Made by a program: the position numbers and the translations under genes
The notes under the pieces: generated by a model
Seen by the model: only the letters and a program-made list of their open reading frames with translations
Told to the model about the DNA's origin: nothing
The model's database searches: none
Part shown: positions 2,243 to 20,698 of the stretch, piece after piece
How positions within the stretch are numbered: position 1 is the stretch's first letter
How the letters are laid out: every line of letters begins with the position of its first letter
From: Phycisphaerales bacterium
GTDB taxonomy: Bacteria; Planctomycetota; Phycisphaerae; Phycisphaerales; SM1A02
Length of the DNA: 64,000 nucleotides
Assembly: GCA_029268515.1 (NCBI GenBank)
Contig: JAQWNP010000003.1
Span: 1-64,000, forward strand
Direction: 5' to 3'

Positions 2243-2331
2243 CGGACAGGGCGGGATTCGAACCCGCGGTAGAGCCAAAACCCTACGCCGGTTTAGCAAA
2301 CCGGTGCCTTCAGCCGCTCGGCCACCTGTCC
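2243..2331 (-). tRNA. tRNA-Ser, anticodon GCT
   Basis: Read on the minus strand the gene begins GGACAGGTGGCCGAGC and ends CCTGTCC plus discriminator G. The acceptor stem GGACAGG/CCTGTCC is perfect. The anticodon stem CCGGT/ACCGG holds loop TTGCTAA, giving anticodon GCT (reads AGC/AGU). A long variable arm and the T-arm GCGGGTTCGAATCCCGC are present, as required for a class II serine tRNA. CCA is not encoded. A TACAAT-like -10 box lies just upstream (plus strand ATTGTA at 2345-2350). Confidence 0.95.
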
Positions 2332-2405
2332 ATGCGAGGCAGGAATTGTACCGCCTTCGTGAGGCAATGGGTGCCAATATTCCTCAGGCGGATAGACTTG
2401 CTGGC

Positions 2406-3257
2406 ATGTCACAATTGCCGCCTAACCGTAGCCATGTCACCACCGAAATTCCCCATCCAGGCAGCTCAGATCTGGGGGCGATCGAAACGAGTGCCGCAGT
2501 CGCACTAATGATCGACGAGCAGCGGGCCGTTGCCGATGCACTAGAAATGGCTATGCCGGCCCTCGTGAGCTTTGTTGACGATCTTGCGGGCCGTATGAAA
2601 GGTGGCGGTAGGCTGATTTATCTCGGAGCAGGTACCTCTGGAAGACTCGGTGTATTAGATGCATCTGAGTGCCCCCCTACCTTTATGAGCTCGCCAGATC
2701 AGGTGCTCGGAATCATTGCAGGTGGCGACTCATCACTTAGGCTCAGCAGCGAGGGCATGGAGGACGATCCTCACGGGAGTCAGGAAATTCTCACCGATAT
2801 TGGGCTCAATAGCAGTGACACGCTCCTGGGGATTGCTGCTGGAGGCACGACGCCCTATGTCTTAGGTGCATTGCCCGCCGCCAAGAAGGCTGGCGTTATG
2901 ACAGGCCTTTTAACATGCGCAGAATCAGTCACATCCGTGGATTCCTGTGACCATCTGATTGTCATACCCACCGGTCCTGAGGTACTGCGTGGCTCTACGC
3001 GGCTCAAGGCAGGGTCAGCAACAAAAGCCGCTTTGAACATGATTACGACCATCGCCTTTGTTCGTCTTGGCAAAGTCCATCGCGATCTGATGATTGATAT
3101 TCGATGTACCAACGATAAATTGGCAGATCGAGCGATTCGTATTCTGGCAGAATTACGCCCGGGGCTATCGCGTTCCGATGCACATGCCAAATTGAAGGCA
3201 TGCGGCGGTTCACTGAAACAGGCATTGTCTGAGACGATTCAGTCTTTAGAAAGATGA
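2406..3257 (+). CDS. murQ: N-acetylmuramic acid 6-phosphate etherase
   Basis: MurQ cleaves the lactyl ether of N-acetylmuramate 6-phosphate to give N-acetylglucosamine 6-phosphate and D-lactate in cytoplasmic peptidoglycan recycling. The 283-residue protein has the SIS sugar-phosphate fold. GGGRLIYLGAGTSGRLGVLD binds phosphate, ASECPPTF carries the first catalytic glutamate, and EGMEDDPHG carries the second. SATKAALNMITT and NDKLADRA are typical late motifs. The length is close to E. coli MurQ (298). The frame stays open upstream to 2217 through the divergent tRNA, so it must start inside; I chose ATG 2406 (MSQLPPNRSHVTTE), which fits homologue N-termini. ATG 2367 is possible but overlaps the tRNA promoter area. 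The 3' end overlaps the convergent kinase gene by 12 bp. Confidence 0.92.
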   Translation: MSQLPPNRSHVTTEIPHPGSSDLGAIETSAAVALMIDEQRAVADALEMAMPALVSFVDDLAGRMKGGGRLIYLGAGTSGRLGVLDASECPPTFMSSPDQVLGIIAGGDSSLRLSSEGMEDDPHGSQEILTDIGLNSSDTLLGIAAGGTTPYVLGALPAAKKAGVMTGLLTCAESVTSVDSCDHLIVIPTGPEVLRGSTRLKAGSATKAALNMITTIAFVRLGKVHRDLMIDIRCTNDKLADRAIRILAELRPGLSRSDAHAKLKACGGSLKQALSETIQSLER

Positions 3258-4157
3258 GACTTTTCTGAAGTCAGCGAGTCTTTGCTTAAGGTCATCAGTG
3301 GAAAGGCCAGCGAGACCACCAAGCCCGAAGTCACGGATCGCAAAGCTTGCGGTGATGGTGCCCCAGGCGAGCGCCTCACGCAACGTCTCAAAGGAGTGAT
3401 CCCCAGTTCTGGCTAGATGCCCCATCATGCCACCAGCAAAGGAGTCGCCTGCGCCAGTTGGATCGACCACATCTTTCTGTCTTGCAGGAAATGCTGGCAG
3501 AACGACCGTCCCTTCACTGGATCTCAATAAACAGCCGTGCTCACCTTTTTTGACCACCACAAATGATGGTCCCATTTCTAGGATCGCATCACCAGCACTA
3601 ACCGCATTGGTGCAGCCAGTGAGTTCAATGGCTTCTTGGTCATTGAGCACCAGACCATCTACACGGGCCAAAAGTGTTCGTAACTCTGGTTGGGCGATAT
3701 CGATCCAAAGATTCATGGTGTCCGCGACACAAAGTTTTTGTCCGGGTACACGCTCAAGCATTGTGAGTTGTTCAGCAGGATGTGAATTCGCTAGAAAAAG
3801 CGTATCGCTGTCTTGAAACGAAGCTGGAACTTCAGGCGGTGCTTCATCAAGAACACCCAGCTCCGTATAGATTGTCTCACGCTGATTGACATCATCTAGG
3901 TACTTACCACCCCAGGCAAAGGTACGCCCTTGAGGTCGCTCCTCAAGACCAGACATGTCAATGTTTTTGAACGCCCTAAGCGCCTGTCGATGCGACTCTG
4001 GCCAGTCGCCCCCCACTGCTGCCACAAGTCGAACTGGTCCGTAGAGTGACGCTGCCGCTGCAAAGTGTGCGCAGGAACCACCAACGACACCCTCTTGCTT
4101 CTGAGTGGGGGTTTCAATCGAATCAATCCCAATTGTCCCAGTAACGAGAAGTGGCAT
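3246..4157 (-). CDS. PfkB/ribokinase-family sugar or nucleoside kinase
   Basis: ATP-dependent kinase of the ribokinase fold, 303 residues. The N-terminal GG motif (EGVVGGSCAHFAAAASLYG, about 23-41) matches PfkB signature 1. DPTGAGDSFAGGMMGHLA (about 232-249) is signature 2 with the anion hole and catalytic Asp (GAGD). A VVVKKGEHGCLL strand precedes it. The lid sequence does not let me name the substrate; fructose, ribose or adenosine-type substrates are all possible. It is the last gene of the minus-strand carbon cluster, 2 bp after the PrpD gene, so it is probably co-transcribed. Its end overlaps murQ tail to tail. Confidence 0.85.
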   Translation of the reverse strand: MPLLVTGTIGIDSIETPTQKQEGVVGGSCAHFAAAASLYGPVRLVAAVGGDWPESHRQALRAFKNIDMSGLEERPQGRTFAWGGKYLDDVNQRETIYTELGVLDEAPPEVPASFQDSDTLFLANSHPAEQLTMLERVPGQKLCVADTMNLWIDIAQPELRTLLARVDGLVLNDQEAIELTGCTNAVSAGDAILEMGPSFVVVKKGEHGCLLRSSEGTVVLPAFPARQKDVVDPTGAGDSFAGGMMGHLARTGDHSFETLREALAWGTITASFAIRDFGLGGLAGLSTDDLKQRLADFRKVSSF

Positions 4158-4159: not shown

Positions 4160-5590
4160 TTATGCGGTCACCTTTGCTGTCATGAGATCCATAAGGCGTT
4201 CGAGCGTTGCTTCATTTTCCATATGCATAATCAATGGGCGTAGCTCATTGCAGGCCTCGGATCCAACCACGCTACTTCCCAGGGCATTGAATTTCACGGC
4301 AATCTCATCTTCAGTCATCGGGTCGCGTGGGTCACCCTTGGGTACATCGACGCGATGTTGATATGTGGAGCCATCCTGCAATGTAATGGTCACTTGGCTT
4401 GGCTGGAACTTCGGGAAGAGTGCCTCGAATTCATCATTGGGAACAACTTTGATCTTATCCATGACTGGTATCAAAGCAGGGTCATCAATTCGTTCTTGTT
4501 TGAACTGCAGTGGTGTGACCATGCCATCAGCAAGGCCGACAGCCAAAGAATAAGGCAAGCTATGATCTGCCGTTTCTTTGCTCGTTGGTCGGTACTTTGC
4601 AGGGTCGCCAAGGATATCTGCAGCTCGTGCAATGACCTCAACTTTAATCTCTTGAACTTGATCTGGATTCAGATTTTGCTCCTTGACGATTTTCATCATT
4701 GCGGTCAAGGGCGCATGGCTCAGAGCCTCGATTGGGAATGATTTCATTCCGCAGTCGATGATTTTGTAATGATCGCTGGCAGAAGCTGGCAGGTCATCAG
4801 TCAGCATATTCAGGTGGAACTTGCCACCAAACTTCTCGAAGCAATGGACCAGTCCCTCTTTGCCGTCGATGACATGTTCTGGTCCAGAGTAGCCACGCGA
4901 AGCAAGCATTGCTGCTTCAACACCGCTGCGAGTCGCCATCGGATCGACGGTGTTCTTCATGTTAGTAAGTTTGCCTGCAGTGACCGCACCCAAGCACATA
5001 GATGGAGAGGCGCTGATACCAATGGCCTGCTGAATCTGTTCTGCAGGAAGCCCGAGCATCCTGCCTGCGACAATTGGTGATGCGATGCAGGTGATTGTCG
5101 CATGGTGCCAGCCATACTCACGTACGCCTGGATCTCCGAACTCAGCCAACCGCATTTCGATTTCGTGGCCGATGACTGTTCCAAGGATGAGATCTTTCCC
5201 GGAAAGACCGTTCATTTCACAGATCGATAGCGCCGCTGGAATGATATCTGATGGATGTGCTGGATCTGCTTTCCAATAGATATCGTTGTAATCCATTGCC
5301 CGAATGCAAAGTGCATTGAGCATCGCTGCCATGACCGGATCGGTTCGATAGCCGGAGCCAAAGATGGTGCAAAGCTCATGGCCACCGAGTTGCTTGGCAT
5401 AGTCAAGGAAGATTTGTAGATCATGCTGTTGGCTGCCGCCAAGGGCGCAACCAAATGAATCAAACAGGTAGAGCTTTGCCGTATGGATCGCTTCGTCACT
5501 GAGATCTTCATACTTTAGTTTTGCAGCCCATTGAGCGAGCTGCCAAGTAATAAAATCAGTGTTCGACTTTGAGGTGTCATGACCGCCCAT
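4160..5590 (-). CDS. MmgE/PrpD-family dehydratase (2-methylcitrate dehydratase-like)
   Basis: MmgE/PrpD proteins dehydrate tertiary hydroxy-acids (2-methylcitrate, sometimes citrate) or decarboxylate cis-aconitate. The 476 residues are the usual length. LYLFDSFGCALGGSQQHD, MDYNDIYWKADPAHPSDII and YGWHHATITCIASPIVAGRML are family landmarks, and KSFPIEALSHAPLTAM corresponds to the active-site lid region. The late GDPAKYRPTSKETADHSLPY resembles PrpD of the methylcitrate cycle more than generic MmgE. It sits between the dehydrogenase (48 bp upstream) and the PfkB kinase (2 bp downstream). No methylisocitrate lyase is nearby, so a complete methylcitrate cycle is not evident; a citrate/aconitate-linked role is plausible. 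AAAGGA precedes the ATG. Confidence 0.88.
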   Translation of the reverse strand: MGGHDTSKSNTDFITWQLAQWAAKLKYEDLSDEAIHTAKLYLFDSFGCALGGSQQHDLQIFLDYAKQLGGHELCTIFGSGYRTDPVMAAMLNALCIRAMDYNDIYWKADPAHPSDIIPAALSICEMNGLSGKDLILGTVIGHEIEMRLAEFGDPGVREYGWHHATITCIASPIVAGRMLGLPAEQIQQAIGISASPSMCLGAVTAGKLTNMKNTVDPMATRSGVEAAMLASRGYSGPEHVIDGKEGLVHCFEKFGGKFHLNMLTDDLPASASDHYKIIDCGMKSFPIEALSHAPLTAMMKIVKEQNLNPDQVQEIKVEVIARAADILGDPAKYRPTSKETADHSLPYSLAVGLADGMVTPLQFKQERIDDPALIPVMDKIKVVPNDEFEALFPKFQPSQVTITLQDGSTYQHRVDVPKGDPRDPMTEDEIAVKFNALGSSVVGSEACNELRPLIMHMENEATLERLMDLMTAKVTA

Positions 5591-6929: not shown

Positions 6930-8885
6930 TTAGGCCTTGGCCAACTTCTTTGCGACGAGTGCTTCAGCCCCCCCTGCCGCGATGACCTCCTGTGGGACGG
7001 CACCTAGCGGGGTGAACTGATACGTCTGATCTTCGATCAAGATCGTTGCCTGGACAAAATCGATGGTTATTTCTGGCCCAATGACGGTTAGCGCCTTATT
7101 TTCCTGCTCCTGAGCACGAAACCAATCCACTAGCTCAGCGCAATCGAGCACGATAAAACCGTTATTGATGGCATTTCGCTTGTAGGTCTGGCTAAAAGAC
7201 GAGGCAATCACACACTGTATTCCGCCGGCTTGCAGGCTGATGACAGCCTGTTCACGGGAAGAACCGGTTCCAAAATTGCGTCCTGCAACAATAATGTCAC
7301 CCGGGCGAGCCATTTCGGCGAATCCTGGGTCATAGTTCGCCATTGCCGCAGCGGCCATTTCTTGCTCTGTCACATCATCGCGATAGGTGAGTTTTCCAGA
7401 ATAGATTCCATCGGTATTGAGGTTATCAATGTCCAACCAGAGTACGCGGCCAGACATCTTTACTGGAAAGCCCTCCGCCATCGTTGTGCTGCCGCCTCCA
7501 CTTGTGCGTGCACCGATCAACTTTGTTTGCGTACTTGCTTTTTGATCCACGTAGTTTCTTGGAGCGCAGATATGCCCAGCCAAAGCAGACGCGGCAACCA
7601 CAGCTGGGCTTGCAAGGTATGCCTGTGCATCGCGACTTCCCATCCGGCCCTTGAAGTTTCTGTTCGTAGCGCTGATGCCAATTTCACCGGCTTTTAATGT
7701 GCCTGCTCCGAGCCCAATACAAGTGCCACAGCCTGGCGGCAATGGAATCGCTCCAGCTTCAAGAAGCTGTTGCCAGTGCCCACTTTCACTGGCGGCCTCT
7801 TGGACATTCTTTGATGCGGCCGCGACATAAAATTCGACATCTTCAGCAACCTTCTTGCCAGCAACGATTGAAGCTGCTTCCTGGAGATCCTCAAGTCGCG
7901 CATTGACGCAGCTCAGTAAGTAGGCCTTGTTAATTTTTACTTGCTCTTGTTCGATCTCTGGCAAAGCTCGCATGACTTTCACATGGTCTGGTCCTGAAAC
8001 ATGTGGAATGACGGTAGAAAGATCGAGCTCTAGCTCTGTGGCGTAGTGAGCATCCGGGTCACTATCGAGCCTATCAGCCCACCAATGATCAACATCATCA
8101 CGGGTAAATCGTGGGCCCTTCTTGCCTGCTCGCCGCGCTAAATAGTCCGCTCGCTTATAGAGAGCCTCTCGCAAGACCTCGTCGAAGGGAAGCACGCCAG
8201 CTAAGGCGCCCCACTCTGTCGTCATATTGGCAATTGAGAGGCGCTGATCCATTGATAGCAAGGCGAGTCCATTACCAGTGAACTCAACGGCCATATTCAA
8301 AACTTCGTCGTTATTAAAGAGTCCACACAAAGCAATGATCACATCTTTACCAACCACCCCTGCCTGGAGCTCGCCGGTCAGTGTGACTTTCGCCATCTGC
8401 GGTACTTGCCACCATGTTTCTCCAGTGGCCCAAATAGCGGCCGCATCTGTTCGCACCACTGGTGTCCCCAATGCCGCCACACCACCGTATAGATTTGAAT
8501 GCGAATCTGAACCAACGACCATGCTGCCGGGAATAACGTATCCCTCTTCAACCATGACTTGATGACTAATGCCTGTACCGGCTGGATAGAAATCAATGTC
8601 GTGGGTCCGAGCAAACTTCTCGATCTTGGCATATTTTCCTAGATTCTCGGGCGTCGTGTTCTGGATATCGTGATCAATGGCGAATACCGGCTGTCGCGAA
8701 TTGAATACTTCGCTTACGCCGATGGAATCAAACTTAAGCATGACACCAGAGGTATTGTCATGGGTCATAATATGCTTGGGCGCTATACGTACAAAGTCCC
8801 CGGCATGAACAAGTTCTGGATAGTCCAGAACATGTTTCTGGACGATCTTCTCTACGAGTGTCTGTGATTTATTGTGAGTGCTCAT
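6930..8885 (-). CDS. Aconitate hydratase, single-chain Aquifex-type
   Basis: [4Fe-4S] hydro-lyase interconverting citrate, cis-aconitate and isocitrate. At 651 residues it is shorter than AcnA (~890) and matches the compact aconitase type known from Aquifex, also related to homoaconitase. The large domain has IMTHDNTSGVMLKF, AIDHD, GSDSHSNLYGGVAALG, and the cluster cysteines in LLSCVNARLEDL and PPGCGTCIGLG. TNRNFKGRMGS and ASPAVVAASALAGHI follow. The swivel domain (about 480-651) contains GRNFGTGSSREQA, the active-site serine/arginine loop. It is followed 142 bp later by the dehydrogenase gene, so citrate-to-2-oxoglutarate steps are encoded side by side. Homoaconitase is the main alternative; the citryl-CoA genes upstream favour aconitase. 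Confidence 0.87.
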   Translation of the reverse strand: MSTHNKSQTLVEKIVQKHVLDYPELVHAGDFVRIAPKHIMTHDNTSGVMLKFDSIGVSEVFNSRQPVFAIDHDIQNTTPENLGKYAKIEKFARTHDIDFYPAGTGISHQVMVEEGYVIPGSMVVGSDSHSNLYGGVAALGTPVVRTDAAAIWATGETWWQVPQMAKVTLTGELQAGVVGKDVIIALCGLFNNDEVLNMAVEFTGNGLALLSMDQRLSIANMTTEWGALAGVLPFDEVLREALYKRADYLARRAGKKGPRFTRDDVDHWWADRLDSDPDAHYATELELDLSTVIPHVSGPDHVKVMRALPEIEQEQVKINKAYLLSCVNARLEDLQEAASIVAGKKVAEDVEFYVAAASKNVQEAASESGHWQQLLEAGAIPLPPGCGTCIGLGAGTLKAGEIGISATNRNFKGRMGSRDAQAYLASPAVVAASALAGHICAPRNYVDQKASTQTKLIGARTSGGGSTTMAEGFPVKMSGRVLWLDIDNLNTDGIYSGKLTYRDDVTEQEMAAAAMANYDPGFAEMARPGDIIVAGRNFGTGSSREQAVISLQAGGIQCVIASSFSQTYKRNAINNGFIVLDCAELVDWFRAQEQENKALTVIGPEITIDFVQATILIEDQTYQFTPLGAVPQEVIAAGGAEALVAKKLAKA

Positions 8886-8918: not shown

Positions 8919-9488
8919 TCAGGAGCCTTTAAAGGGGCGAAGGTGGCACAGCAGCCAGATTGGCCAGAAGATCTGAACAAAGGCAGCCCCGAGAAGGCAT
9001 ACGATCCCAACTGCAATATGGAGTTCAATTGAGATAAACCGGAGCACAGCAAGAGACTCATAGTGGCCCGTAAATGGGATGAAGGTCCATAACAGCGCCA
9101 AGATGGCCCAGCCCCATGTCATGATGGCTCCACCGGGCCGGTCCACAATCAAGTGGATCGATCCTATCAGCAATAAGATTCCCAGCAGGGTTACGACACA
9201 GTAGACCATGAGCACGACCATCGGGCCCGGAAGCATTTCAAGCCCTCTATTGGCTCCATCAACTTTAGAGATGTCACCAGGGATAGAAACCTCATTGATA
9301 GTGATCGCCTCAAGCCCATGATTTAGTAGATCGCCAACTTGCGCTGTAGTGGTGTTTACCTCATCAGAAATATTCTTTATGGCTGTAGAGGCAATCACGC
9401 CAGCGATACCAGCGCTAATCTGAAGGATGGCCACCATGACTGAAATCCAGGCCATACGGACTCGCTTCGGCTGTGCGGTGTTTTTCAT
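8919..9488 (-). CDS. Unknown four-helix membrane protein
   Basis: 189 residues with four hydrophobic segments, near residues 13-35, 74-104, 117-137 and 150-180. The first loop (about 36-72, KNISDEVNTTTAQVGDLLNH...) is polar and probably extracytoplasmic. I recognise no family. The start overlaps the stop of the preceding membrane-protein gene (ATGA at 9488-9485), indicating translational coupling. The next gene, aconitase, ends its upstream side 33 bp away, so this gene lies inside the carbon cluster although nothing in its sequence suggests an enzyme. Confidence 0.7.
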   Translation of the reverse strand: MKNTAQPKRVRMAWISVMVAILQISAGIAGVIASTAIKNISDEVNTTTAQVGDLLNHGLEAITINEVSIPGDISKVDGANRGLEMLPGPMVVLMVYCVVTLLGILLLIGSIHLIVDRPGGAIMTWGWAILALLWTFIPFTGHYESLAVLRFISIELHIAVGIVCLLGAAFVQIFWPIWLLCHLRPFKGS

Positions 9489-10498
9489 GATGGCAGCATA
9501 TCGGCAGCAAGCGAAGCTGCCAGTTCCGGGCGGGCCTCAGGATGGGTCCAACGCTGCCAAAAGCATAAAAAATCAGGATCACTGATTGACCCGAAGCTCA
9601 TTTGCTTACATCCCGCTGGGCCGATCAGCTGAAGATAAACAGAAGCAAACCTATTCGGACATAGCTGGGCAGCTCTAATAATGGCGACTGAGTCTTCAGT
9701 ATTCCAGATCTGCCCGCTCGAACTGACTGTGAAACCCGGTCCCGCGATTAGGCCCTTCGAATCTCTTTGGAACTGTCGAACAAAACGGCGAACAGGTGGT
9801 AAAGGCAACAGTCCACTGATCAAGAAAACAAAACCAACCGCAAGACAGATTATTTGACCATACAGGAGCGCGAGGCCTAGAGCATTGGCGGCGAGAATCA
9901 ATGAGATCACGATATTTGAAATCTTACGCTTGGAGCTTGCAAGAACATGCTCTGGCTCAGGAAGGCCAGGCAACAGCGCGATGCTCCTTAGAGATTGAAT
10001 AAAAGCAAGATCAGCAATGACCTCAGGTCTTGAGGTTCCTTGTTGCTTAAAACCGGAGTCAAGAGCCGTGATTGTCGACTTTGCATGCTGGCTAGAGGAT
10101 GATCTTTGAGGCAAGTTCGCTTGTTGAATGACAGAAAGCAGGCCTGCAACGTATGTTTGCCTAAGGTGCTTTTTTGTATATCGACGCGATTTGAATTCCT
10201 TGAGAGCGAGGAACAAACAAAGCAGCGCAGCGAGTAAAACGAGAAATCCGACGATGCCATTTGATCGAGCGCCAAGACTCACCATAAGAAAAATAGCTAG
10301 AAGCAGAAGAAACAAAATGAGCACGACTTCGTGAGCTAACGTTTCGTGTCGACCAGGCAAAGGCAGCCACAGCGTCTTTGGCGACCACTCCAGAAAAGTT
10401 TCTTTATCAAGAGGCAATCGTCGCTCAGGAAAAAGCGGCCGAACAGACATGGCCACAGTCAGTAGCACAAAAGCTAGGGCGAAAATGAGCGAAGCCAT
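9485..10498 (-). CDS. Unknown membrane protein with a central cytoplasmic linker
   Basis: 337 residues. Hydrophobic segments lie near 1-17, 56-75, 79-97 and as a pair near 195-232, the last ending GLLPLPPVRRF. A polar stretch of about 95 residues (98-192) separates the pairs, and a soluble C-terminal domain of about 100 residues (GLIAGPGFTVSSSGQIWNTE...) follows, containing SVYLQLIGPAGCKQM and WQRWTHPEARPELAA. No family recognised. Start and upstream stop share bases (TAATG at 10500-10496), and the stop overlaps the next gene, so it is tightly coupled within a three-gene block with the HD-like gene. Confidence 0.7.
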   Translation of the reverse strand: MASLIFALAFVLLTVAMSVRPLFPERRLPLDKETFLEWSPKTLWLPLPGRHETLAHEVVLILFLLLLAIFLMVSLGARSNGIVGFLVLLAALLCLFLALKEFKSRRYTKKHLRQTYVAGLLSVIQQANLPQRSSSSQHAKSTITALDSGFKQQGTSRPEVIADLAFIQSLRSIALLPGLPEPEHVLASSKRKISNIVISLILAANALGLALLYGQIICLAVGFVFLISGLLPLPPVRRFVRQFQRDSKGLIAGPGFTVSSSGQIWNTEDSVAIIRAAQLCPNRFASVYLQLIGPAGCKQMSFGSISDPDFLCFWQRWTHPEARPELAASLAADMLPS

Positions 10499-11189: not shown

Positions 11190-11957
11190 CTAAAGTGTTC
11201 TTGTCTTTGGGCCATCGTAGGTATGCGATTTTGGGTCAATACGCCGCATTGGTCGCATACGGTCTTGCTCCTCGGCAACATGGGCCAGAAGCCCTGGGGT
11301 CCGGGCAATCATGAAGAGGCCATTCATAATTTGTGGCTCGAAGCCCAGATCAGCAGTCACCGCTGCAATAGCACCATCTACATTCAGAGGCAGGGTCTTG
11401 CCTGAGCCAGCGAAGATCTCGGCGACGGCATCTGCTGCAGCCATATGTGAACCTGAGACCCCCGCTTCTTCAGCCAGCTCAAACAGTCGACTTGTGCGGG
11501 GGTCGTTGCTATGGACACGATGACCAAAGCCACTCATTCGCTTCCCTTTGGACTTGAGTTCATCCAAAAAGGCGCTTGCGGCTCCTACTAAATCACCATC
11601 TTTACCAGCGCGCTCAATAATTGAACTCAATTGTAGCGCGCAGTTGGTGATCGCGCCCCCGTGAAACTCATTGACACTCATGATTCCTGCCGCAACAGAG
11701 GCTGAGACAGTCGCTCCAGTGGAAGCGACTTGGCGAGCTGATTGCACAGAAGGTGGTGTCACGCCATGGTCAATACTCGAGACCAAGATGGCATCCATCA
11801 GTCGACCGACCTCATCACTGGGCATTTCTCCCCGAAGCACTAGGTAGACGGCCTGTCCGAATGTCACCCTCCCCATGAGATCAGCGATGTTATAGCCGCG
11901 GACTCGGACCTCATTGGGCTTGATTTCTGTAATTGCTGTCGGCCACGTGTCTGCCAT
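11190..11957 (-). CDS. Citryl-CoA lyase-like protein (short citrate-synthase fold)
   Basis: 255 residues, far shorter than citrate synthase (~430), lacking its N-terminal part and matching the stand-alone citryl-CoA lyase type (homologous to the C-terminal domain of ATP-citrate lyase). Family features are ITEIKPNEVRVRGYNIADLMG at the start (cut here to its role: substrate-side helix), ILVSSIDHGVTPPS, VNEFHGGAI with the first catalytic His, MSGFGHRVHSNDPR with the second, and LPLNVDGAIAAV with the catalytic Asp. The end MRPMRRIDPKSHTYDGP is typical. It lies 30 bp after the SucD-like subunit, so ligase and lyase together would split citrate into acetyl-CoA and oxaloacetate. Another 3-hydroxyacyl-CoA substrate is possible. 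AAAGGGTG precedes the ATG. Confidence 0.82.
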   Translation of the reverse strand: MADTWPTAITEIKPNEVRVRGYNIADLMGRVTFGQAVYLVLRGEMPSDEVGRLMDAILVSSIDHGVTPPSVQSARQVASTGATVSASVAAGIMSVNEFHGGAITNCALQLSSIIERAGKDGDLVGAASAFLDELKSKGKRMSGFGHRVHSNDPRTSRLFELAEEAGVSGSHMAAADAVAEIFAGSGKTLPLNVDGAIAAVTADLGFEPQIMNGLFMIARTPGLLAHVAEEQDRMRPMRRIDPKSHTYDGPKTRTL

Positions 11958-11987
11958 GAGTCACACCCTTTTTCAAATTGAATGAGT

Positions 11988-12908
11988 TTAGCTGGAGGCT
12001 GGTATACCCAATGCGGCGAGTGCTGCGGCGGGAAGGTCACCAAATCCGTCGACTACGGTCGCGCCAGCTGATGTCAGAGCCGCAACTTTGCCCGCATGTG
12101 TGCCGCGATTGCCTTCAATGATTGCCCCAGCATGACTAAACCGTGTGCCTTCGCGGGCTGCCTTGCCTCCAATGTAGGCGACCACCGGCTTTGTCACTCG
12201 TCCAGCAGCCATGAGTTCAGCAAGTTGCTCTTCTTGGGAACCACCAATCTCACCGAAGATCACAATTGCATCGGTTTCAGGATCGTCTTGAAACATCATG
12301 GCGACATCGGGGATGCGAAGGCCAAGTACTGAATCGCCTCCCACATGACAAATCGTGCTAATGCCGAGGCCTGCTCTGCTGAGGTAGTACCCACATGATG
12401 AAGACATGCCACCACTGCGCGATATCACGCCCACTGTTTTTCCTGGGATGGGTTCATTAAACCATTGGCGGGCAGACTCAGCGCGGCCGCCAATCATGCC
12501 AAGCACACCGCGACCAGGGCTAATCACGCCGAGTGTATTGGGGCCAATGAAATCAGCGCCGCAGATTTTTGCTTGCTTAGCGATAGCCATGGCATCCCAA
12601 ACCGGTATCCGGTCAGGTACAAGCATGATGCGTTTGATGCCACCTTGCATTGCTTCAATCGCAGCGGCTTTAACAAGCCGCGCCGGCACGAAGATGACTG
12701 AGACGTCAACACTTCCAACACACTCTGTCATTGCTGCGACTGAATCGAATACAGGCAGGCCCTCGACTTCTTGCCCGCCCTTTCCTGGCGTGCAGCCACC
12801 GATGATGTTGGTTCCAAATGATTTCATAAGCCGCGTGCGGGCTCGGCCCTCTCGCCCGGTAATGCCTTGCACGCACACTTTTTTATCTTTATCGATAATG
12901 ATCGCCAT
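11988..12908 (-). CDS. CoA-ligase alpha subunit, citryl-CoA synthetase small-subunit/SucD-like
   Basis: 306 residues in the SucD fold. VCVQGITGREGRARTRLMKS opens the CoA-binding Rossmann domain, with GGCTPGKGGQEVEGLPVFDS next. IGPNTLGVISPG and IVIFGEIGGSQEEQ are ligase signatures, and FSHAGAIIEGNRGT carries the phospho-histidine. VGVISRSGGMSSS resembles ATP-citrate lyase (SRSGGM) rather than succinyl-CoA synthetase (SRSGTL). It starts within the stop of the beta-subunit gene (TGATG), so the two are translated together in stoichiometry. Together with the lyase gene downstream this favours citryl-CoA synthetase; succinyl-CoA or malyl-CoA ligase is the alternative. Confidence 0.82.
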   Translation of the reverse strand: MAIIIDKDKKVCVQGITGREGRARTRLMKSFGTNIIGGCTPGKGGQEVEGLPVFDSVAAMTECVGSVDVSVIFVPARLVKAAAIEAMQGGIKRIMLVPDRIPVWDAMAIAKQAKICGADFIGPNTLGVISPGRGVLGMIGGRAESARQWFNEPIPGKTVGVISRSGGMSSSCGYYLSRAGLGISTICHVGGDSVLGLRIPDVAMMFQDDPETDAIVIFGEIGGSQEEQLAELMAAGRVTKPVVAYIGGKAAREGTRFSHAGAIIEGNRGTHAGKVAALTSAGATVVDGFGDLPAAALAALGIPASS

Positions 12909-14470
12909 CAGCTTCTTTTTGCCTCCGTGTCGATGCCCTCAATCGCCAAGTCTACAAAGAGGATTGGGCATCCCGCTCTCTGTAATTCGATCTCTAAGCC
13001 AATGAACTCCGAATCTTTTCCTGCCGCTTCATCTTCTGAAATGGCGAGTGTGATGCCATCTGAATTTAGATTCAACAGTCCCTCTCCAAATTCTGCAATG
13101 ACCTGTTTAGCTTTGTCGTTTATTGCATTTTGGTCAATCCAAATGCAGCCTCCATTGATCTGGAATTGCGTGGCGTTATTGGTTCCAACGAAGTCTGGGA
13201 CAGATCTCTTGAGTTTGTCTGAGCGTGCATTGGGGTTTCGTGATTCAACGAGTGTCGCGAAGCGTTGCGCACAGAAAGCTGGGGTATCATCCTTGCGGTA
13301 GCCTTCTATTGTTCCGGGGAGCGAATCGCAAGCTGACTCCAGAATCTCGACAGCTCGATCCTCTGCATTGCCACCGAGGCGAATGACCACTGGCATGGAG
13401 ACGTTCATCTCTTTGAATGCTTTGGCCAGGCCATAGGCAGAATGAAACTGTTCTTGACTTGCTACGCCGCTACCAGAGCCGAAGTAACCGATCAGGCCTG
13501 GCTGACTCAGTATGACCCGAGCCGCGCGATAAACTTTTGCTGCAGATGGATTGCCTGATGTATCAGTAAAGTTTGCCAAGGTGAAGCCCAGGCTTGATAC
13601 CGCATCCATAGACATCATTGAACCGCCGCCACCAGCGCCATGAAAGCCGATCAAGCCAAGTGTTGCCTCATGTCCATCGGTCGGCAGTTGAGCAAAGTAA
13701 AAAGTACCTCGATGATCTTCTTGCTCAATGCGATAAGCAATACGTTCTAGTTCAGTCGCGGGGTGATCTAATTCTCTGGCGATTTCAATGCCAAGTTCGT
13801 CGTGACGAAAAACGGCATAGTCGTCCACGGTGACGCGGCAGTCGGCGGCCACGACGTTGCCGTCTTTGGTTGTGACAAGGGGATTGATCTCAAGCGATCT
13901 TGCTTCAATCTTCTGAGCCATCTTTACCGCATTAACGATTGCATCAGCAATCTTCGCATGTGTTTCACTTGGAATAGCTGATCCTTTGAGCAGCTGCTCA
14001 AGCTCAGATCGGCTCACGCCAGTTTCGACATCAATAGCGAGTCGGGCGACCTGGTCGGCGCGTTCTTCGATGCCGGAGCCGCCATGCAGGTCCACCAATA
14101 AGACAGGTGCTCGCGTAGAGTCATCAATTGTGAGTGACACAAAGAGCTCTTGATCAATATCAATCAGCTCTTCAATGAGAACCTCTTGCACCGGGAAGTT
14201 GCCAAAGGACAGTGACAAGAGCTTCTTGGCAGCGTCCTTTGCTTCTTCGCTCGATTCAGCAAAGAGAATTCCTCCCTTCGCCTTGCGCCCAGTGATCCAT
14301 GCCTGGGCTTTAAGGATGACGCCTTTGCTAGTCATTGTGTTGAGTTGTTCGTACGCCTCTTGGGCTTCTTGAGGGCTCGTAATGACGTGACCTCTGGGCG
14401 TGCTGATGCCACCCTGGCTCAATAGGCTCTTTCCTTGATGTTCATGCAGACGTGCCACTGGGAACTCCAT
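12908..14470 (-). CDS. CoA-ligase beta subunit, citryl-CoA synthetase large-subunit-like, with C-terminal extension
   Basis: 520 residues from ATG 14470 (MEFPVARLHEHQGKSLL, the usual SucC start); the frame is open to an ATG at 14527 without better support. ATP-grasp residues include VILKAQAWITGRKAKGG and SLEINPLVTTKDGNVVAADC. The ligase domain has FHGAGGGGSMMSMDAV, LANFTDTSGNPSAAKVYRAA, GYFGSGSGVAS and MPVVIRLGGNAEDRAVEIL. SucC and CcsA proteins end near here (about 390-430), but this one continues for about 100 residues (QINGGCIWIDQNAIND ... CPILFVDLAIEGID), an added alpha/beta domain I do not recognise. First gene of the cluster; its stop overlaps the alpha-subunit start. Confidence 0.8.
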   Translation of the reverse strand: MEFPVARLHEHQGKSLLSQGGISTPRGHVITSPQEAQEAYEQLNTMTSKGVILKAQAWITGRKAKGGILFAESSEEAKDAAKKLLSLSFGNFPVQEVLIEELIDIDQELFVSLTIDDSTRAPVLLVDLHGGSGIEERADQVARLAIDVETGVSRSELEQLLKGSAIPSETHAKIADAIVNAVKMAQKIEARSLEINPLVTTKDGNVVAADCRVTVDDYAVFRHDELGIEIARELDHPATELERIAYRIEQEDHRGTFYFAQLPTDGHEATLGLIGFHGAGGGGSMMSMDAVSSLGFTLANFTDTSGNPSAAKVYRAARVILSQPGLIGYFGSGSGVASQEQFHSAYGLAKAFKEMNVSMPVVIRLGGNAEDRAVEILESACDSLPGTIEGYRKDDTPAFCAQRFATLVESRNPNARSDKLKRSVPDFVGTNNATQFQINGGCIWIDQNAINDKAKQVIAEFGEGLLNLNSDGITLAISEDEAAGKDSEFIGLEIELQRAGCPILFVDLAIEGIDTEAKRS

Positions 14471-14551
14471 TTCTGAAGAAACTGATATGAGCAAATTGCT
14501 CGGAAGGTTCGGATCGTATGGTCGCATGCAGATGCTGACAATAGGCTGCCA

Positions 14552-15462: not shown

Positions 15463-17019
15463 ATGGCAGAAAAATCTGGATCACTTGAGTTAACGGGCAG
15501 TCCAATCCACCTTGATGATTTGGCAGATGTGGCACGCGCTGGGCGTCATGTCACCCTGGCAGTATCTCAGCGTAAAGTCATCATGAGGGCCCAAGACGCG
15601 GTCAATGCTGTTTGGCAAGATGGTGCTGAGCCTGTCTATGGCATTAATACGGGTTTCGGTGCACTCTCGCGTTCAGTCATTGATTCCACAAATATCACAA
15701 CGCTTCAAGAAAATATTCTCCGCTCACATGCGGCCGGGGTTGGTGAAGCACTTCCTGAAGATGTGGCTCGAGCAATGATGTTGCTTCTCGCAGCCAGCCT
15801 GTCGCGCGGACACTCAGGCATTTCTTGTGACGTCATTGAGCAAATACTCGCTCTTCTCAATCACGGCATCACCCCAGTGATTCCGTCACGGGGATCAGTG
15901 GGTGCTTCTGGTGATCTTGCTCCATTGTCTCATTTAGGCCTGGTCTTGATTGGTGAGGGGCAAGCTTGGGTTGACGGCGAACGAATGGATGGTGGGTCTG
16001 CATTGGCAAAGCGTGGACTTTCCAAAATGCCATTGGCTGCAAAGGTTGGCCTTGCACTGATTAATGGTACGCATCTAATGGCTGCGATCGCATCGCTTGC
16101 ATTGATTGATCTTGAGAATCTTCTTCCTGCCGCCTTGCTTGCTTCGGCGATGGGTATTGACGCTTGCCGTGCTACTGACAGTTTTCTTGATGATCGACTT
16201 CATGCGGTCCGCTGTCAGCCAGGCCAAAGGCGTGTTGCGAAATGTGTGCGGACATTGCTAGCGGGCTCACAAATTATTCAAGATCACCAACAAGACGATC
16301 CCCGAGTACAAGATCCCTATAGCCTGAGAGCAACGCCGCAGGTGCTGGGCGCTGTGCTCGACACCATTGAACATGTCCGCGTGGTCATCGATGCAGAGCT
16401 CGGTGCCGTCACAGACAATCCACTTGTTTTTCCAGGGGAATCCAGTGGTGAGGCAGACTTTGTTGCCGGAGGTAATTTTCATGGAATGCCACTCGCTATC
16501 GCGCTCGATACGCTGTCAATTGCAATTTGTCACATGGCTGGTATCAGCGAACGAAGGTTGAACTGGCTACTCTCTGGCCGCGATGATCAAAATCCTGTTA
16601 CCCCCTTCCTTGCATCCGACCCAGGCTTACACAGTGGTCTGATGATTGTTCAGTACACAGCTGCCGCCTGCTGCAATGAGCTGCAATGCCTTGCGTCGCC
16701 AGCGAGTGTTGGCAACATTCCTACATCTGCTGGCATCGAGGACTACAACTCCATGGGTGCGACTGCTGCTCATCAGGTGCGCCAAGCTGTCGGTCTTGCT
16801 CGTAATGTTATTGCGATTGAACTCATGGCGATGGCTGAGGGGCTTGAGCATCAGCGTCCATTACTGAGTGGTGACCAGGTTGAGCGAGGCCACCAACTGT
16901 TGCGAGATGTGGTTGCTCCGTTAGAAGCGGATCGTAGTCCTGCTCCAGACATTGAAGCGATCTGCCAACTGATTGTGGCAGGTGGGCTGCGTGAGTTTGG
17001 GGATAGTCTCAATATGTAG
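15463..17019 (+). CDS. hutH: Histidine ammonia-lyase
   Basis: HutH deaminates L-histidine to trans-urocanate and ammonia, the first step of histidine catabolism, in the cytoplasm. The 518 residues are typical. YGINTGFGALS holds the conserved tyrosine loop, and GSVGASGDLAPLSHLGL carries Ala-Ser-Gly, which cyclises to the MIO electrophile. QDPYSLRATPQVLG and TDNPLVF are further active-site motifs, and the end SAGIEDYNSMGATAAHQVRQ fits the C-terminal shield region. The gene is followed 90 bp later by hutU and then hutI, so the first three steps are encoded together, although hutI is separated by an opposing STAS gene. No hutG/hutF-type gene is in the window. Confidence 0.96.
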   Translation: MAEKSGSLELTGSPIHLDDLADVARAGRHVTLAVSQRKVIMRAQDAVNAVWQDGAEPVYGINTGFGALSRSVIDSTNITTLQENILRSHAAGVGEALPEDVARAMMLLLAASLSRGHSGISCDVIEQILALLNHGITPVIPSRGSVGASGDLAPLSHLGLVLIGEGQAWVDGERMDGGSALAKRGLSKMPLAAKVGLALINGTHLMAAIASLALIDLENLLPAALLASAMGIDACRATDSFLDDRLHAVRCQPGQRRVAKCVRTLLAGSQIIQDHQQDDPRVQDPYSLRATPQVLGAVLDTIEHVRVVIDAELGAVTDNPLVFPGESSGEADFVAGGNFHGMPLAIALDTLSIAICHMAGISERRLNWLLSGRDDQNPVTPFLASDPGLHSGLMIVQYTAAACCNELQCLASPASVGNIPTSAGIEDYNSMGATAAHQVRQAVGLARNVIAIELMAMAEGLEHQRPLLSGDQVERGHQLLRDVVAPLEADRSPAPDIEAICQLIVAGGLREFGDSLNM

Positions 17020-17109
17020 TGGGAGCAAAATGTTAAGATATCGAACTCAGTGCACAGATCTTTGTTTCTGATTAATGCTACGCAGCCCTCTAGTAAAGTT
17101 GATTACCCA

Positions 17110-18774
17110 ATGACACAAACAGAAGCTCGAACCATTCGTGCTCCACGAGGAGCATCACTTACATGCAAGACCTGGCAGGCCGAGGCTGCGATGCGCATGT
17201 TGATGAATAATCTTGATCCGGAAGTTGCTGAAAAGCCCAATGAACTTGTCGTTTACGGTGGGCGCGGGCAAGCAGCCCGTTCATGGGCTGCCTACGACGC
17301 CATTATTGCCTCCCTTAAGTCGCTGGAGCCGGATGAGACGCTGCTGATTCAATCAGGCAAACCTGTCGGGATCATGAAAACGACACCTGATGCACCTCGT
17401 GTCATTATTGCGAATTCAAATCTTGTCCCCCACTGGGCGACGCAAGAACACTTTGATGATCTAGCCGCGCGTGGGCTGATTATGTTCGGGCAAATGACGG
17501 CGGGGTCTTGGATTTATATTGGTACGCAAGGCATTCTTCAGGGGACCTATGAAACTTATGCGCAATGTGCTCGAGAACATTTTGGGGGCACGCTTGCAGG
17601 CACCCTGAACGTGACTGCAGGTTGTGGCGGCATGGGTGGCGCCCAGCCACTGGCCATCACAATGAATGAAGGAACATGTCTCATTGCAGAGATCTGCAGT
17701 GAACGATTGGAAAAGCGCGTACACGATCGCTATTTGGACGAAGTGATAGAGGAATTAGACGCAGCAATCGATCGGGCCGTGGCAGCCAAGAATGCAAAAG
17801 AGCCGGTATCAATTGGCTGGCTAGGCAATGCCGTCGACTTGCTTGAGCGACTGAAGTCTCGCGGTATTGTTCCTGACACGCTGACAGATCAAACGAGTGC
17901 TCATGATCCTCTTGCGGGCTACTACCCAGCCGGACTTTCGCGTGCGGCGGCAGACAACCTTCGAGAGGAAGATCCAGAAGACTATGTTCGCCGTTCAATG
18001 GATACGATGGAGACCCACGTCAGATTGATGGTGGACCTTCAAAAGCAAGGTGCGCGGACCTTTGACTACGGAAACAATATTCGCCAGCGTGCGCTAGACA
18101 ATGGCTTTGCCGATGCTTTTGCATTTCCTGGCTTTGTGCCCGCTTATATCCGACCGCAATTCTGCCAGGGGCGTGGCCCTTTTCGCTGGGCTGCACTTTC
18201 GGGAGATCCAGCGGATATTGCAGCAACTGATCAGGTTATTCTTGATCTCTTTCCCAATGATGTGGCTCTCAAGAGATGGATCACAATGGCGCAGGAGCGG
18301 GTTGCTTTCCAGGGGCTGCCTTGTCGTATCTGCTGGCTTGGCCTCGGACAGCGTGATAAGGCCGGCCTTGCCTTTAACGAGCTTGTCGCGTCTGGAAAAG
18401 TAAGTGCTCCAATCGTGATTGGTCGCGATCATCTCGACTGTGGGTCGGTTGCTTCGCCAAATCGAGAGACTGAAGGAATGCTCGATGGATCAGATGCGAT
18501 CAGCGACTGGCCGTTGCTTAACTTTGCAGTCAGTACGGCAAGCGGTGCAAGTTGGACGAGTTTCCATCATGGCGGCGGTGTTGGTATTGGCTTTGCTCAG
18601 CATGCTGGTCTCGTTGTTGTCGCAGATGGAACAAAGGAAGCAGACGCTCGCCTCAAGCGTGTCTTGACCAATGATCCAATGATGGGTGTCATTCGTCATG
18701 TTGACGCGGGATATGAGTTGGCCGAGCGGGTTGCTGACCAGCAGGATGTGCCAATTCCGATGCGAGATCAATAA
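17110..18774 (+). CDS. hutU: Urocanate hydratase
   Basis: HutU adds water to urocanate to give 4-imidazolone-5-propionate using tightly bound NAD+. From ATG 17110 ([17 protein letters not shown]) it has 554 residues, almost the same as the Pseudomonas enzyme; the frame runs to 17050, but the added residues do not fit the family. [33 protein letters not shown] and [16 protein letters not shown] form the NAD pocket. Later [17 protein letters not shown] and [15 protein letters not shown] appear, and [20 protein letters not shown] is the C-terminal signature. It is translated from the hutH transcript after a 90-bp spacer; I see no strong ribosome-binding site. Confidence 0.96.
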
Positions 18775-18788
18775 GCTGCTTGCAGTAA

Positions 18789-19178
18789 CTATGCAGCCAT
18801 GAGCCGACGAAGTTTGCGAGCGGTGTTGCAGATCGGGATAAGCCGGTTGATTTTCATTGACTTGATAATCGTGGTCAATTCGTCATTGACGTTGACCATT
18901 CCTGTACCAAGGTGAAGACGATTGGCCTCGCCACGAATCTCAATCAGCATTCCAAGGCCCATGCTATTGAGGAATTTGACGCGATTGAAATCAAATACCA
19001 ATGCCGTGATGTGAGACGGAATGGCTGCAAGATGTCTCCGCACTGCTTGGGCAATAATCGAGACTTCTCGTGTGCCAATATTGGGGCCGACTGGTGTGAT
19101 CAGGAGTGCTGATTGTTCGATTGAAAAGTCTACGAACAGCGTTGCTGGTTTTTCGGTGCCTCGCACTGAGCTGTGCAT
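18789..19178 (-). CDS. STAS-domain anti-sigma-factor antagonist-like protein
   Basis: 129 residues, a single STAS domain as in SpoIIAA/RsbV. The core VFDFNRVKFLNSMGLGMLIEI (about 65-85) includes the serine (NSMGLG) that anti-sigma kinases phosphorylate in this family. The C-terminal helix (ELTTIIKSMKINRLIPI) is typical of the binding face. It points against hutU (14 bp between stops) and lies between hutU and hutI, apparently an unrelated insertion into the hut region. The partner kinase and sigma factor are not adjacent. A SpoIIE-type phosphatase, the expected antagonist of such phosphorylation, occurs at the right edge of the window, but any link is inference. Confidence 0.85.
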   Translation of the reverse strand: MHSSVRGTEKPATLFVDFSIEQSALLITPVGPNIGTREVSIIAQAVRRHLAAIPSHITALVFDFNRVKFLNSMGLGMLIEIRGEANRLHLGTGMVNVNDELTTIIKSMKINRLIPICNTARKLRRLMAA

Positions 19179-19438
19179 GTCATTGCCTCCTCCTGGCCGG
19201 CCATCTTCAGCGAGGCCAGGAATAATGGGAACTTTTACCCTGCTTCATGAGAAGGGATCGACATCACGCCACCCGGACTTGCCCGAGAACCAGGTTTAAA
19301 TCCGCTCTCATATGCCTCCTTGCCATTATTTCGGACCTTCTGGCCTGCATCTCTGTCACAGACCAACCCCCGCTCCTGGTTTGCTTCTCTGGTAACGGGG
19401 CTGACCCGAACCTTTCTGGGTGCTAGAGTGTCGGCCCA

Positions 19439-20698
19439 ATGGCCGATTTCACCATCATCAATGCCCGAATAGTGACCCTCGCTGGCGACAAGGATGCTCC
19501 AGGTCCTCGGCGCGGTGATGCGATGAATCAAATGGGTGTTATTGATTGCGGCTATGTCACCATTCATGACGGGATGATTTCAGCTGTTGGAGCAGGACTC
19601 CCTGAGCAAGATGGTCTTGAAGATGTATTCGATGCTGACGGCTGTGTTTTGATGCCAGCATTTGTGGATTCGCATACCCATGCCTGCTGGGCCGGCAGCC
19701 GACTTGATGAGTTTGAAATGGCTCAGGCTGGTCGTACCTATTTGGACATCCTCAAAGACGGTGGCGGCATTATGTCGACGGTCAGAGCCGTTCGTGAGAC
19801 CAGCGAAGAAGATCTGGTCTCGATGTTAATGCGAAGGCTTTCTTCGATGGCAGCGCTCGGTACTGGAGCGGTCGAAGTGAAGTCAGGTTATGGCCTCAAC
19901 ACAGAGAACGAACTCAAGATGATTCGGGCGATTCACGCCGCCAGTCAAGAGTCTGTCCAGCTGCTGGTCGGAACTTTCCTTGGTGCTCATGCAATCGACC
20001 CTGATGTGCCAGATTTTGTAGAACGAACCATTAGCGAGTGTTTGCCAGCTGTATGTGGTGAGTTTCCTGGTATTGCTTGTGATGCCTACTGTGAAAAGGG
20101 CGCTTGGTCTGTGGCAGATACCATTCGACTCTTTGAAGCAGCTCGCCAGCAAGGATGCCCCTTGCGGGTACATACCGATCAATTTAACTCTTTGGGTATG
20201 ACTCAGGCTGCAATCGAAATGGGTGCGGTGAGTGTTGATCATCTTGAGGCGATCTCAGATGCGGACGTCAAGCGACTCGCAGACAGCGAGACGATTGGAG
20301 TACTCCTTCCTTGTAGTGGCTTTAGCCTCGATGATCGCTATGCTCCGGGGCGTCGCCTGCTTGATGCTGGATGCGCATTGGCCATTGCTTCAAATTACAA
20401 TCCAGGATCAGCGCCCACGCCATCGATGGCATTTACTATTTCACTGGCCGTTCGGCGAATGAAGATGACTTGTGCCGAAGCGATTACAGCGGCCACCTAT
20501 AACGCGGCATGTGTTTTGGGGATACAGGATTCCACGGCCACCATTGAAGTAGGAAAGCGGGCAGATCTGCAGCTCCTAGATACAGACGATGAAAGAGAGC
20601 TTGCTTACGAGTTTGCTAATGCTGGCCCCCTGCTTGTGGCGGTCAGCGGTCGCATTGTGCATGCCAGAGCAATTGCGACCGATGAAGAAGAGTCTTGA
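19439..20698 (+). CDS. hutI: Imidazolonepropionase
   Basis: HutI hydrolyses imidazolonepropionate to N-formimino-L-glutamate, step three of histidine breakdown. 419 residues of the amidohydrolase TIM-barrel fold: the beta-sandwich start MADFTIINARIVTLAG, the metal motif VDSHTHACWAGSRLDEFE, the GAVEVKSGYGLNTENELKMI region, LRVHTDQFNSLG and VSVDHLEAISDAD with metal histidines, and ASNYNPGSAPTPSMAFTIS as the usual late motif (shown in part). It lies on the hutH/hutU strand but after a 660-bp stretch holding the STAS gene, so it may have its own promoter in 19179-19438, where I see no clear boxes. The start at 19439 fits homologue length. Confidence 0.94.
   Translation: MADFTIINARIVTLAGDKDAPGPRRGDAMNQMGVIDCGYVTIHDGMISAVGAGLPEQDGLEDVFDADGCVLMPAFVDSHTHACWAGSRLDEFEMAQAGRTYLDILKDGGGIMSTVRAVRETSEEDLVSMLMRRLSSMAALGTGAVEVKSGYGLNTENELKMIRAIHAASQESVQLLVGTFLGAHAIDPDVPDFVERTISECLPAVCGEFPGIACDAYCEKGAWSVADTIRLFEAARQQGCPLRVHTDQFNSLGMTQAAIEMGAVSVDHLEAISDADVKRLADSETIGVLLPCSGFSLDDRYAPGRRLLDAGCALAIASNYNPGSAPTPSMAFTISLAVRRMKMTCAEAITAATYNAACVLGIQDSTATIEVGKRADLQLLDTDDERELAYEFANAGPLLVAVSGRIVHARAIATDEEES

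Follow-up and report, generated by a model that had tools for sequence, protein, structure and literature searches.

A predicted citryl-CoA lyase and a divergent ligase pair within a conserved seven-gene module of a Phycisphaerales genome

What could a set of genes apparently able to cleave citrate do in a planctomycete that also carries oxidative tricarboxylic acid (TCA) cycle enzymes? This question is raised by contig JAQWNP010000003.1 of a Phycisphaerales bacterium (assembly GCA_029268515.1), whose first 64,000 nucleotides, analysed as a whole, are hereafter called the window. According to the listing of its open reading frames (ORFs), three adjoining minus-strand ORFs (14470-11190) encode a ligase pair and a short protein with a citrate-synthase fold. 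A preliminary description of the window had read them as a two-subunit citryl-CoA synthetase plus citryl-CoA lyase, possibly serving the acetyl-CoA-releasing half of a reductive TCA cycle or a cytosolic supply of acetyl-CoA, and unexpected in Phycisphaerae; it had also proposed a phylogeny of the proteins and a search of the genome for another sucC and a full-length citrate synthase. The three genes lie where it had placed them, with a homology far beyond chance. The module is bigger than first noted, however, and runs SucC-SucD-lyase-HD protein-homoaconitase-like aconitase-IDH2-MmgE/PrpD; the aconitase and the isocitrate dehydrogenase (IDH) seen further along the strand are part of the same conserved cluster, of which the HD and MmgE/PrpD proteins had not been mentioned. 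The gene run is as follows:

12908 to 14470, minus strand: SucC-like (ATP-grasp) ligase subunit, about 520 amino acids (aa), with a C-terminal extension of about 110 aa
11988 to 12908, minus strand: SucD-like ligase subunit, 306 aa, with the SRSGGM loop and the phosphohistidine motif FSHAGAI
11190 to 11957, minus strand: predicted citryl-CoA lyase, citrate-synthase fold, short form, 255 aa
10498 to 11103, minus strand: HD-domain protein (HDIG model), metal motif HD changed to AD
9485 to 10498 and 8919 to 9488, minus strand: two accessory membrane-type ORFs (type judged by eye) inside the gene run
6930 to 8885, minus strand: aconitase-family enzyme, homoaconitase (LYS4)-like (TIGR00139), single chain of 651 aa
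5639 to 6787, minus strand: IDH2, isocitrate/homoisocitrate-dehydrogenase-like, with the SPIV substrate motif and the K-Y coenzyme motif
4160 to 5590, minus strand: MmgE/PrpD-family protein (MmgE_PrpD_N, 242 bits)

Two of these starts were set within longer frames. The longest SucC-like ORF covers 12908-14527; position 14470 is an ATG, with a GTG next at 14458, and the homologues align from ARLHEYQ onward, which fits a start at 14470. The IDH2 ORF opens at 7003, and its homology begins at the ATG at 6787.

Four lines of evidence identify the 255-aa protein as a predicted citryl-CoA lyase, namely its profile scores, its closest solved structure, its catalytic residues and its position in a tree. 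It exceeds the cut-offs of three curated citryl-CoA lyase models (NF004869, 262.7 bits against 212; NF004866, 259 against 245; NF004868, 194.1 against 193) and scores under those of three further ones; its best match among solved structures is the citryl-CoA lyase of Hydrogenobacter (6hxp, 183 bits), the runner-up reaching 76. His99, His146, Asp194, Arg154, Arg219 and Arg238 are invariant in 79 aligned rows, window included; by analogy with citrate synthase, we take the two histidines and the aspartate to be catalytic and the arginines to bind oxaloacetate. Thus, both histidine regions and the aspartate previously recognized in this protein stand, while the N-terminal synthase sequence is not wholly missing as had been thought: the Pfam Citrate_synt match falls mainly in the C-terminal half (profile positions 162-354 of 357), and a short N-terminal stretch aligns with positions 10-55 of the citrate-synthase profile. 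In a tree of 27 rows, for which the program warned of long branches, the lyase joins Ccl and the lyase domains of other planctomycetes, separated from the citrate synthases by a split with 100/100 support; the two citrate synthases of the same genome fall outside the lyase group.

The phylogeny was less decisive for the ligase. In a tree of 24 rows, also with long branches, the SucC-like subunit forms its own clade (100/99), placed between CcsA plus AclB and SucC plus the f73 type. The preliminary identification is supported for the lyase, which groups with Ccl; for the ligase, membership in the CcsAB family appears too strong a claim, since the SucC-like subunit has its own branch and a different loop. 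Its sequence matches Pfam ATP-grasp_2 (127 bits) and, by a margin of 2 bits, exceeds the cut-off of Citrate_bind (28.9 against 26.8); among solved structures it comes closest to Thermus SucC (171 bits), followed by CcsA (6hxq_B) and AclB (6hxj_A), both at 112.8, and E. coli SucC (101). Its score with the succinate-CoA ligase model is 209.5 bits, below the cut-off of 370, and the cluster ligase subunit is also below the cut-off of the malate ligase model. The stretches GGGGS, P-x-T-x-x-E and SGNP resemble those of AclB/CcsA and are absent from E. coli and Thermus SucC. As regards the SucD-like subunit, it obtains 259 bits with the sucCoAalpha model (cut-off 353), and its solved-structure matches are SucD (236 bits), then CcsB (146) and AclA (117). 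The SRSGGM loop already pointed out in the window's protein is kept in 70 of the 71 homologues that reach 290 aa, and the motif FSHAGAI, whose phosphorylation is predicted, in all 71. The genome search, in turn, retrieved an ordinary sucC elsewhere (518 bits with the succinate-CoA ligase model) and two full-length citrate synthases. Since the genome has its own sucC, the pair should not be the succinyl-CoA synthetase of the TCA cycle; these comparisons place it on a separate branch near CcsA/AclB, distinct from ordinary SucCD.

An AlphaFold2 model of the SucC-like subunit (predicted local distance difference test, pLDDT, 87.7) shows a confidently folded C-terminal extension of about 110 residues, for which no Pfam family was found above cut-off; the structural comparison of the model covered residues 5-408. 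A ferredoxin-like nature of this domain was considered and dropped, no ferredoxin-type cysteine set being kept in the window and in 55 homologues over 480 aa.

To what extent is the cluster conserved? When species genomes were scanned with an alignment of seven lyase rows, at least 570 relatives were retrieved among 587 matching stretches, and the best 80 loci were analysed. According to the record titles, these belong to Planctomycetota or Verrucomicrobia, except for one "uncultured bacterium" and one "Vicinamibacteraceae". SucD was found in 74 of the 80, SucC in 65, the HD protein in 58, the aconitase in 43, IDH2 in 39 and MmgE/PrpD in 22. When the count is restricted to the 45 loci for which 7 kb or more is available downstream, it becomes 39 (HD), 34 (aconitase), 33 (IDH2) and 20 (MmgE/PrpD); for the 65 with at least 3 kb upstream it is 61 (SucD) and 59 (SucC). 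Where the downstream sequence extends over 2 kb or more, the HD gene is present in 52 of 67 related loci. All the cluster genes lie on the lyase strand, except for one HD and one MmgE/PrpD gene, and their order is mostly conserved. Counterparts of the two membrane-type ORFs, neither of which matched any Pfam family above cut-off (8919-10498), were found in 1 and 7 of the 80 loci.

In 32 of 74 loci (25 out of 26 Verrucomicrobial ones and seven others), SucD and lyase form one AclA-like reading frame; in the window they are separate genes. A SucD-lyase fusion is carried by three genomes of one planctomycete family (G124, G139 and G169; loci L014, L021 and L022, respectively). Its frame is about 750 codons long in G139 and G169 and is ended by the contig end in G124; the citrate-synthase part is longer than in the Verrucomicrobial fusion (about 573 aa), and these proteins are perhaps type II ATP-citrate lyases.

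With at most six candidates scored per genome, the lyase was found at E 1e-30 in at least 8 of the 392 genomes sampled from the phylum, that of the window being one of the 8; in the order of the Udaeobacter genome, it is present in at least 38 of 213 genomes. A GNAT acetyltransferase-like ORF family (named by eye) was also observed in 29 of the 80 loci, directly behind the lyase; the 12 printed offsets are 718-773 bases after the lyase start (e.g., about 773 in L043). It is absent from the window, because only 86 bases separate the lyase from the HD gene.

The module exists beside an oxidative TCA enzyme set. One of the two citrate synthases of the window genome stands beside a prpB-like gene, and the genome also encodes, elsewhere, an NAD-type-looking IDH with S-V-N-V and D-I motifs and an aconitase that looks AcnA-like by eye. 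Of 15 other carriers of the module, 14 have one or more full-length citrate synthases; in the fifteenth, a Udaeobacter (G399), the gene is in pieces with stops. Exactly two Iso_dh matches were retrieved from 13 of these 15 genomes, and one lies within 9 kb of the lyase in 11. The POR_N family is represented by one gene in the window genome, by none in four of the 13 close carriers (G319, G395, G397 and G404), by one to seven in the other nine, and by three to eight in four distant genomes. Given the citrate synthase, the AcnA-like aconitase, the other IDH and the POR_N result, a full reductive TCA cycle is not supported for the window genome. Nor do the data indicate one across the whole family, since four close carriers lack POR_N and the window genome has a single gene, although some members may have it. 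The ability to cleave citrate is commonly regarded as a sign of autotrophy through the reductive TCA cycle. Citrate-cleavage genes alone should not be taken to show carbon fixation, because 14 of 15 carriers keep citrate synthase and 4 of 13 lack POR_N.

The other cluster enzymes were then considered. IDH2 matches Pfam Iso_dh (276 bits), and its residues K376, Y377 and Y424 are invariant in 33 rows; the K-Y motif was found in all 34 rows typed as IDH2, while the other IDH of the genome has D-I. Reading K-Y and D-I as NADP and NAD, respectively, on the presumed model of Lys344, Tyr345 and Tyr391 of E. coli IDH, IDH2 would prefer NADP. As the genome shows two Iso_dh genes only, IDH2 was also considered as a LeuB; this is not favoured, the RENTEG motif and the lyase arginines being kept.

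Concerning the HD protein, the HDIG model gives 33.2 bits (cut-off 27.6); no Pfam family scored above cut-off and no solved chain matched by sequence at E 0.1 or better. The best fold match of its AlphaFold2 model (pLDDT 90) is the HD domain of YhaM (Z 14.4, root-mean-square deviation 3.4, 164 aligned); PhnZ reached a Z of 7.9, and a PhnZ/MIOX-type oxygenase is not claimed. The changed motif is shared by the close homologues (LADxGK in 55 out of 55), and HD is retained in two distant planctomycetes, G014 and G169. Of 16 genomes searched for the MmgE/PrpD family, 13 contain it, always with two or more matches. In the window genome a second copy, distinct from that of the cluster, is located on another contig (C6:568750), the one harboring the prpB- and prpC-like genes; a role of the cluster copy as the methylcitrate enzyme is thus not favoured.

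Distant planctomycete relatives are informative on the substrate of IDH2. On contig C26, G169 has a cluster of IDH2, HD, two aconitases, SucC-like and the SucD-lyase fusion, in which IDH2 and HD are 50% and 33% identical to the window's, and SucC and the fusion are ACL-like, i.e., similar to ATP-citrate lyase (ACL). Ferredoxin oxidoreductase (POR_N) genes are located at 26813 and 30023, on the opposite strand, upstream of IDH2 at 31312. The sole Iso_dh of G169 (90% complete) besides IDH2 looks LeuB-like by eye. In G014 (76% complete), no Iso_dh other than IDH2 was found, nor any citrate-synthase-family gene other than the lyase, which seems to be divided between two contig ends. IDH2 being the only non-LeuB-like Iso_dh found in both genomes points to isocitrate as its substrate; the two genomes together favour an isocitrate dehydrogenase function for IDH2 and an origin of the set in a reductive-TCA-like context.

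On these grounds, we propose, with a probability of roughly 0.55, that the module encodes a dedicated NADPH-driven branch leading from 2-oxoglutarate to acetyl-CoA and oxaloacetate, rather than a whole reductive TCA cycle. In the first step, the NADP-type IDH2 would convert 2-oxoglutarate, CO2 and NADPH into isocitrate, which the clustered aconitase-family enzyme would turn into citrate. The SucC-like/SucD-like ligase would then form citryl-CoA from citrate, ATP and CoA via the SucD phosphohistidine, and the lyase would split it into acetyl-CoA and oxaloacetate. Working beside the oxidative TCA set, the branch would probably turn glutamate or other five-carbon substrates into acetyl-CoA and oxaloacetate. 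The enzyme families, the catalytic residues, the conserved clustering and the presence beside other TCA enzymes are established at the level of sequence; from them we infer citrate as the substrate, the direction, the use of NADP and the roles of the HD and MmgE/PrpD proteins.

Several observations weigh against this proposal. Some of them concern its enzymes. The best model for the aconitase, called Aquifex-type in the preliminary description, is homoaconitase (TIGR00139, 742 bits, 212 above its cut-off of 530); the aconitate hydratase model PRK07229 gives 371 bits, below its cut-off of 612, and, of 25 models shown, only the small-subunit model TIGR02087 is also exceeded, by 3 bits. The best NCBIfam model for IDH2 is the homoisocitrate dehydrogenase of methanogens (333 bits, below the cut-off of 540), and its SPIV motif contains Ile at the position of the Asn of canonical IDHs. 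In the SucC-like subunit, the second substrate loop reads ASQEQ in 55 of 58 sequences and ANQEQ in 3, against ANFTD in AclB and ANNTR in CcsA; thus, the A-N-x-T loop common to the last two, to which we assign a substrate role by presumed analogy with human ACLY, is lacking. Three order-level carriers (G372, G303 and G319) have, besides IDH2, a second K-Y, SLNV-type IDH, so that the cluster is not the only source of an NADPH-linked IDH and the NAD/NADP division is not general. In the family of G169, G124 and G139 harbor a canonical IDH in addition to an IDH2 with SPIV and K-Y; hence, only G169 and G014 speak for isocitrate, which lowers our confidence in the proposed branch and raises that in the alternative with a citrate homologue described below.

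Others concern the gene set. MmgE/PrpD and HD are not required by the proposed scheme. The HD gene adjoins in only 8 of 21 Verrucomicrobia loci with at least 2 kb downstream, against 44 of 46 in the rest, and locus L049 has aconitase-IDH2-MmgE/PrpD upstream of SucC instead; both facts count against a tight operon in every lineage. Lastly, within the same limit of six candidates per genome, the lyase was not detected in any of the nine further genomes listed for the window's family.

Part of this evidence could be accommodated by a pathway acting on a homologue of citrate such as homocitrate (2-oxoglutarate + acetyl-CoA <-> 2-oxoadipate + CO2), in which the ligase and the lyase would make or split the CoA ester, MmgE/PrpD would dehydrate, the homoaconitase-like enzyme would hydrate and IDH2 would decarboxylate. 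Each step would then have its own paralogue beside the TCA and methylcitrate-type copies. The invariance of the lyase arginines, expected to bind oxaloacetate, and the finding of IDH2 as the only candidate IDH type in G169 and G014 argue against it; moreover, no lysine or 2-oxoadipate gene was noticed by eye among the ORF families shared by the 80 loci, no family search having been run. We consider this alternative doubtful, and it keeps some weight because of the homoaconitase-like aconitase, the IDH2 model and its Ile, the SucC loop and the unexplained MmgE/PrpD. In its broadest form, and rather speculatively, the seven-gene set might represent a third route for tricarboxylates, alongside the TCA and methylcitrate cycles, with a citrate homologue as its substrate and with ATP either made or spent by the CoA ligase-lyase pair. 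Just as tentatively, its carriers would be Phycisphaerales and soil Verrucomicrobia, including Udaeobacter, with the HD protein as a further step or a regulator.

Alternatively, the same enzymes might run in reverse, with acetyl-CoA and oxaloacetate giving citryl-CoA and then citrate, the ligase making ATP and IDH2 making NADPH; this would be an energy-saving bypass of citrate synthase, with citrate oxidised on to 2-oxoglutarate. The chemistry of ligase and lyase is reversible, ATP-citrate lyase is known to work in the synthesis direction in the acetate-oxidising Desulfobacter, and the cluster does stand beside an oxidative TCA enzyme set. However, full-length citrate synthases, present in the window genome and in 14 of 15 other carriers, would exert an irreversible pull on the flux, and the vicinity of the distant G169 cluster to ferredoxin oxidoreductases suits the reductive direction; we therefore regard the reverse operation as unlikely. 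That the pair is simply the oxidative cycle's succinyl-CoA (or malyl-CoA) synthetase, next to an unrelated or decayed citrate synthase, is highly improbable, for, although the closest solved structures of the two subunits are SucD and Thermus SucC, the pair scores below the SucCD cut-offs and the cluster subunit below that of malate ligase, another sucC lies far above its own, the loops are changed, SucD and lyase are often fused and the lyase residues are invariant.

Other genes of the window were named by eye. HutH, HutU and HutI-like genes for histidine degradation (15463-20698, plus strand) are divergent from the cluster, and HutH-like genes occur in 14 of the 80 related loci; glutamate, the product of histidine breakdown, is also the five-carbon input proposed above. 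PfkB-like kinase and MurQ-like genes (3246-4157 and 2217-3257) lie beside MmgE/PrpD, as in 3 of the 80 loci. On the minus strand, a 1133-aa ORF (29530-32931) resembles a fused indolepyruvate:ferredoxin oxidoreductase, and two adjoining squalene/phytoene-synthase-like ORFs with an FAD-dependent oxidase-like ORF (23999-27272) are possibly hopanoid or carotenoid precursor genes.

Is such a module unexpected in Phycisphaerae? The relevant section of PMC5459899 (2017) speaks against this view, as it describes, from a planctomycete bin, genes for the synthetase and the lyase of citryl-CoA, with relatives in Phycisphaerae, Planctomycetes and Spirochaetes. According to the same section, these genes carry succinyl-CoA synthetase and citrate synthase annotations and are intermediate between the CCS-CCL (citryl-CoA synthetase and lyase) of Aquificae and type II ACL, a fused version being present in another planctomycete. 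In the parts consulted, PMC11588811 states that ATP citrate lyase was not found in six other planctomycete genomes, PMC3578206 describes low-similarity ACL genes in Nitrospina, PMC9504748 contains a docking treatment bearing on the ACLY substrate loop, and PMC9560492 and PMC6662431 hold nothing on such clusters. One open library yielded nothing on Udaeobacter with citrate lyase, nothing joining HD domain, citrate lyase, isocitrate dehydrogenase and aconitase in a gene cluster, and PMC5459899 only for citryl-CoA synthetase with Phycisphaerales-type names. Hence, planctomycete citrate-cleavage genes were already known, whereas their neighbourhood and their spread, common soil bacteria included, appear from these searches to be new and to have been little noticed. 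If the proposed branch is correct, soil and marine bacteria would possess their own version of reductive 2-oxoglutarate metabolism; the occurrence of split and fused forms in one family also bears on the origin of ATP-citrate lyase.

The known system closest in layout is that of Hydrogenobacter (CcsA/CcsB plus Ccl; 6hxq and 6hxp), likewise consisting of three separate genes for a SucC-like subunit, a SucD-like subunit and a short lyase with a citrate-synthase fold; CcsA and the window's SucC-like subunit have GNP and P-x-T-x-x-E-type stretches in common. The latter differs in its own branch, its extra C-terminal domain and its ASQEQ instead of ANNTR, and the window's set has HD, MmgE/PrpD, homoaconitase-like and IDH2 genes as neighbours; its other carriers, but for one in 15, keep a full-length citrate synthase. 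Mushroom Spring OTU-14 and Planctomycetes bacterium DG20, treated in part of PMC5459899, are of like kind, with split and ccsB-ccl fused (AclA) versions; that section places them in the context of carbon fixation by the reductive TCA cycle, and the HD, IDH2 and MmgE/PrpD neighbours, the Verrucomicrobia and the coexistence with the TCA cycle do not appear in it. ATP-citrate lyase (AclA/AclB; Chlorobium limicola, 6hxj) shares the SucD-lyase fusion with nearly all the Verrucomicrobial loci seen and the GGG(A/G)S and SG(D/N)P loops with the window family, but in the window the two proteins are separate, the similarity is low (112.8 and 117 bits) and ASQEQ replaces ANFTD. Finally, in the reductive glutamine metabolism of animal cells, cytosolic IDH1, aconitase and ACLY act in succession. 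The reaction sequence proposed here, with its NADP-type IDH, would be like that route, although the animal enzymes are of other lineages and the bacterial one is seen as genes only, gathered in one cluster.

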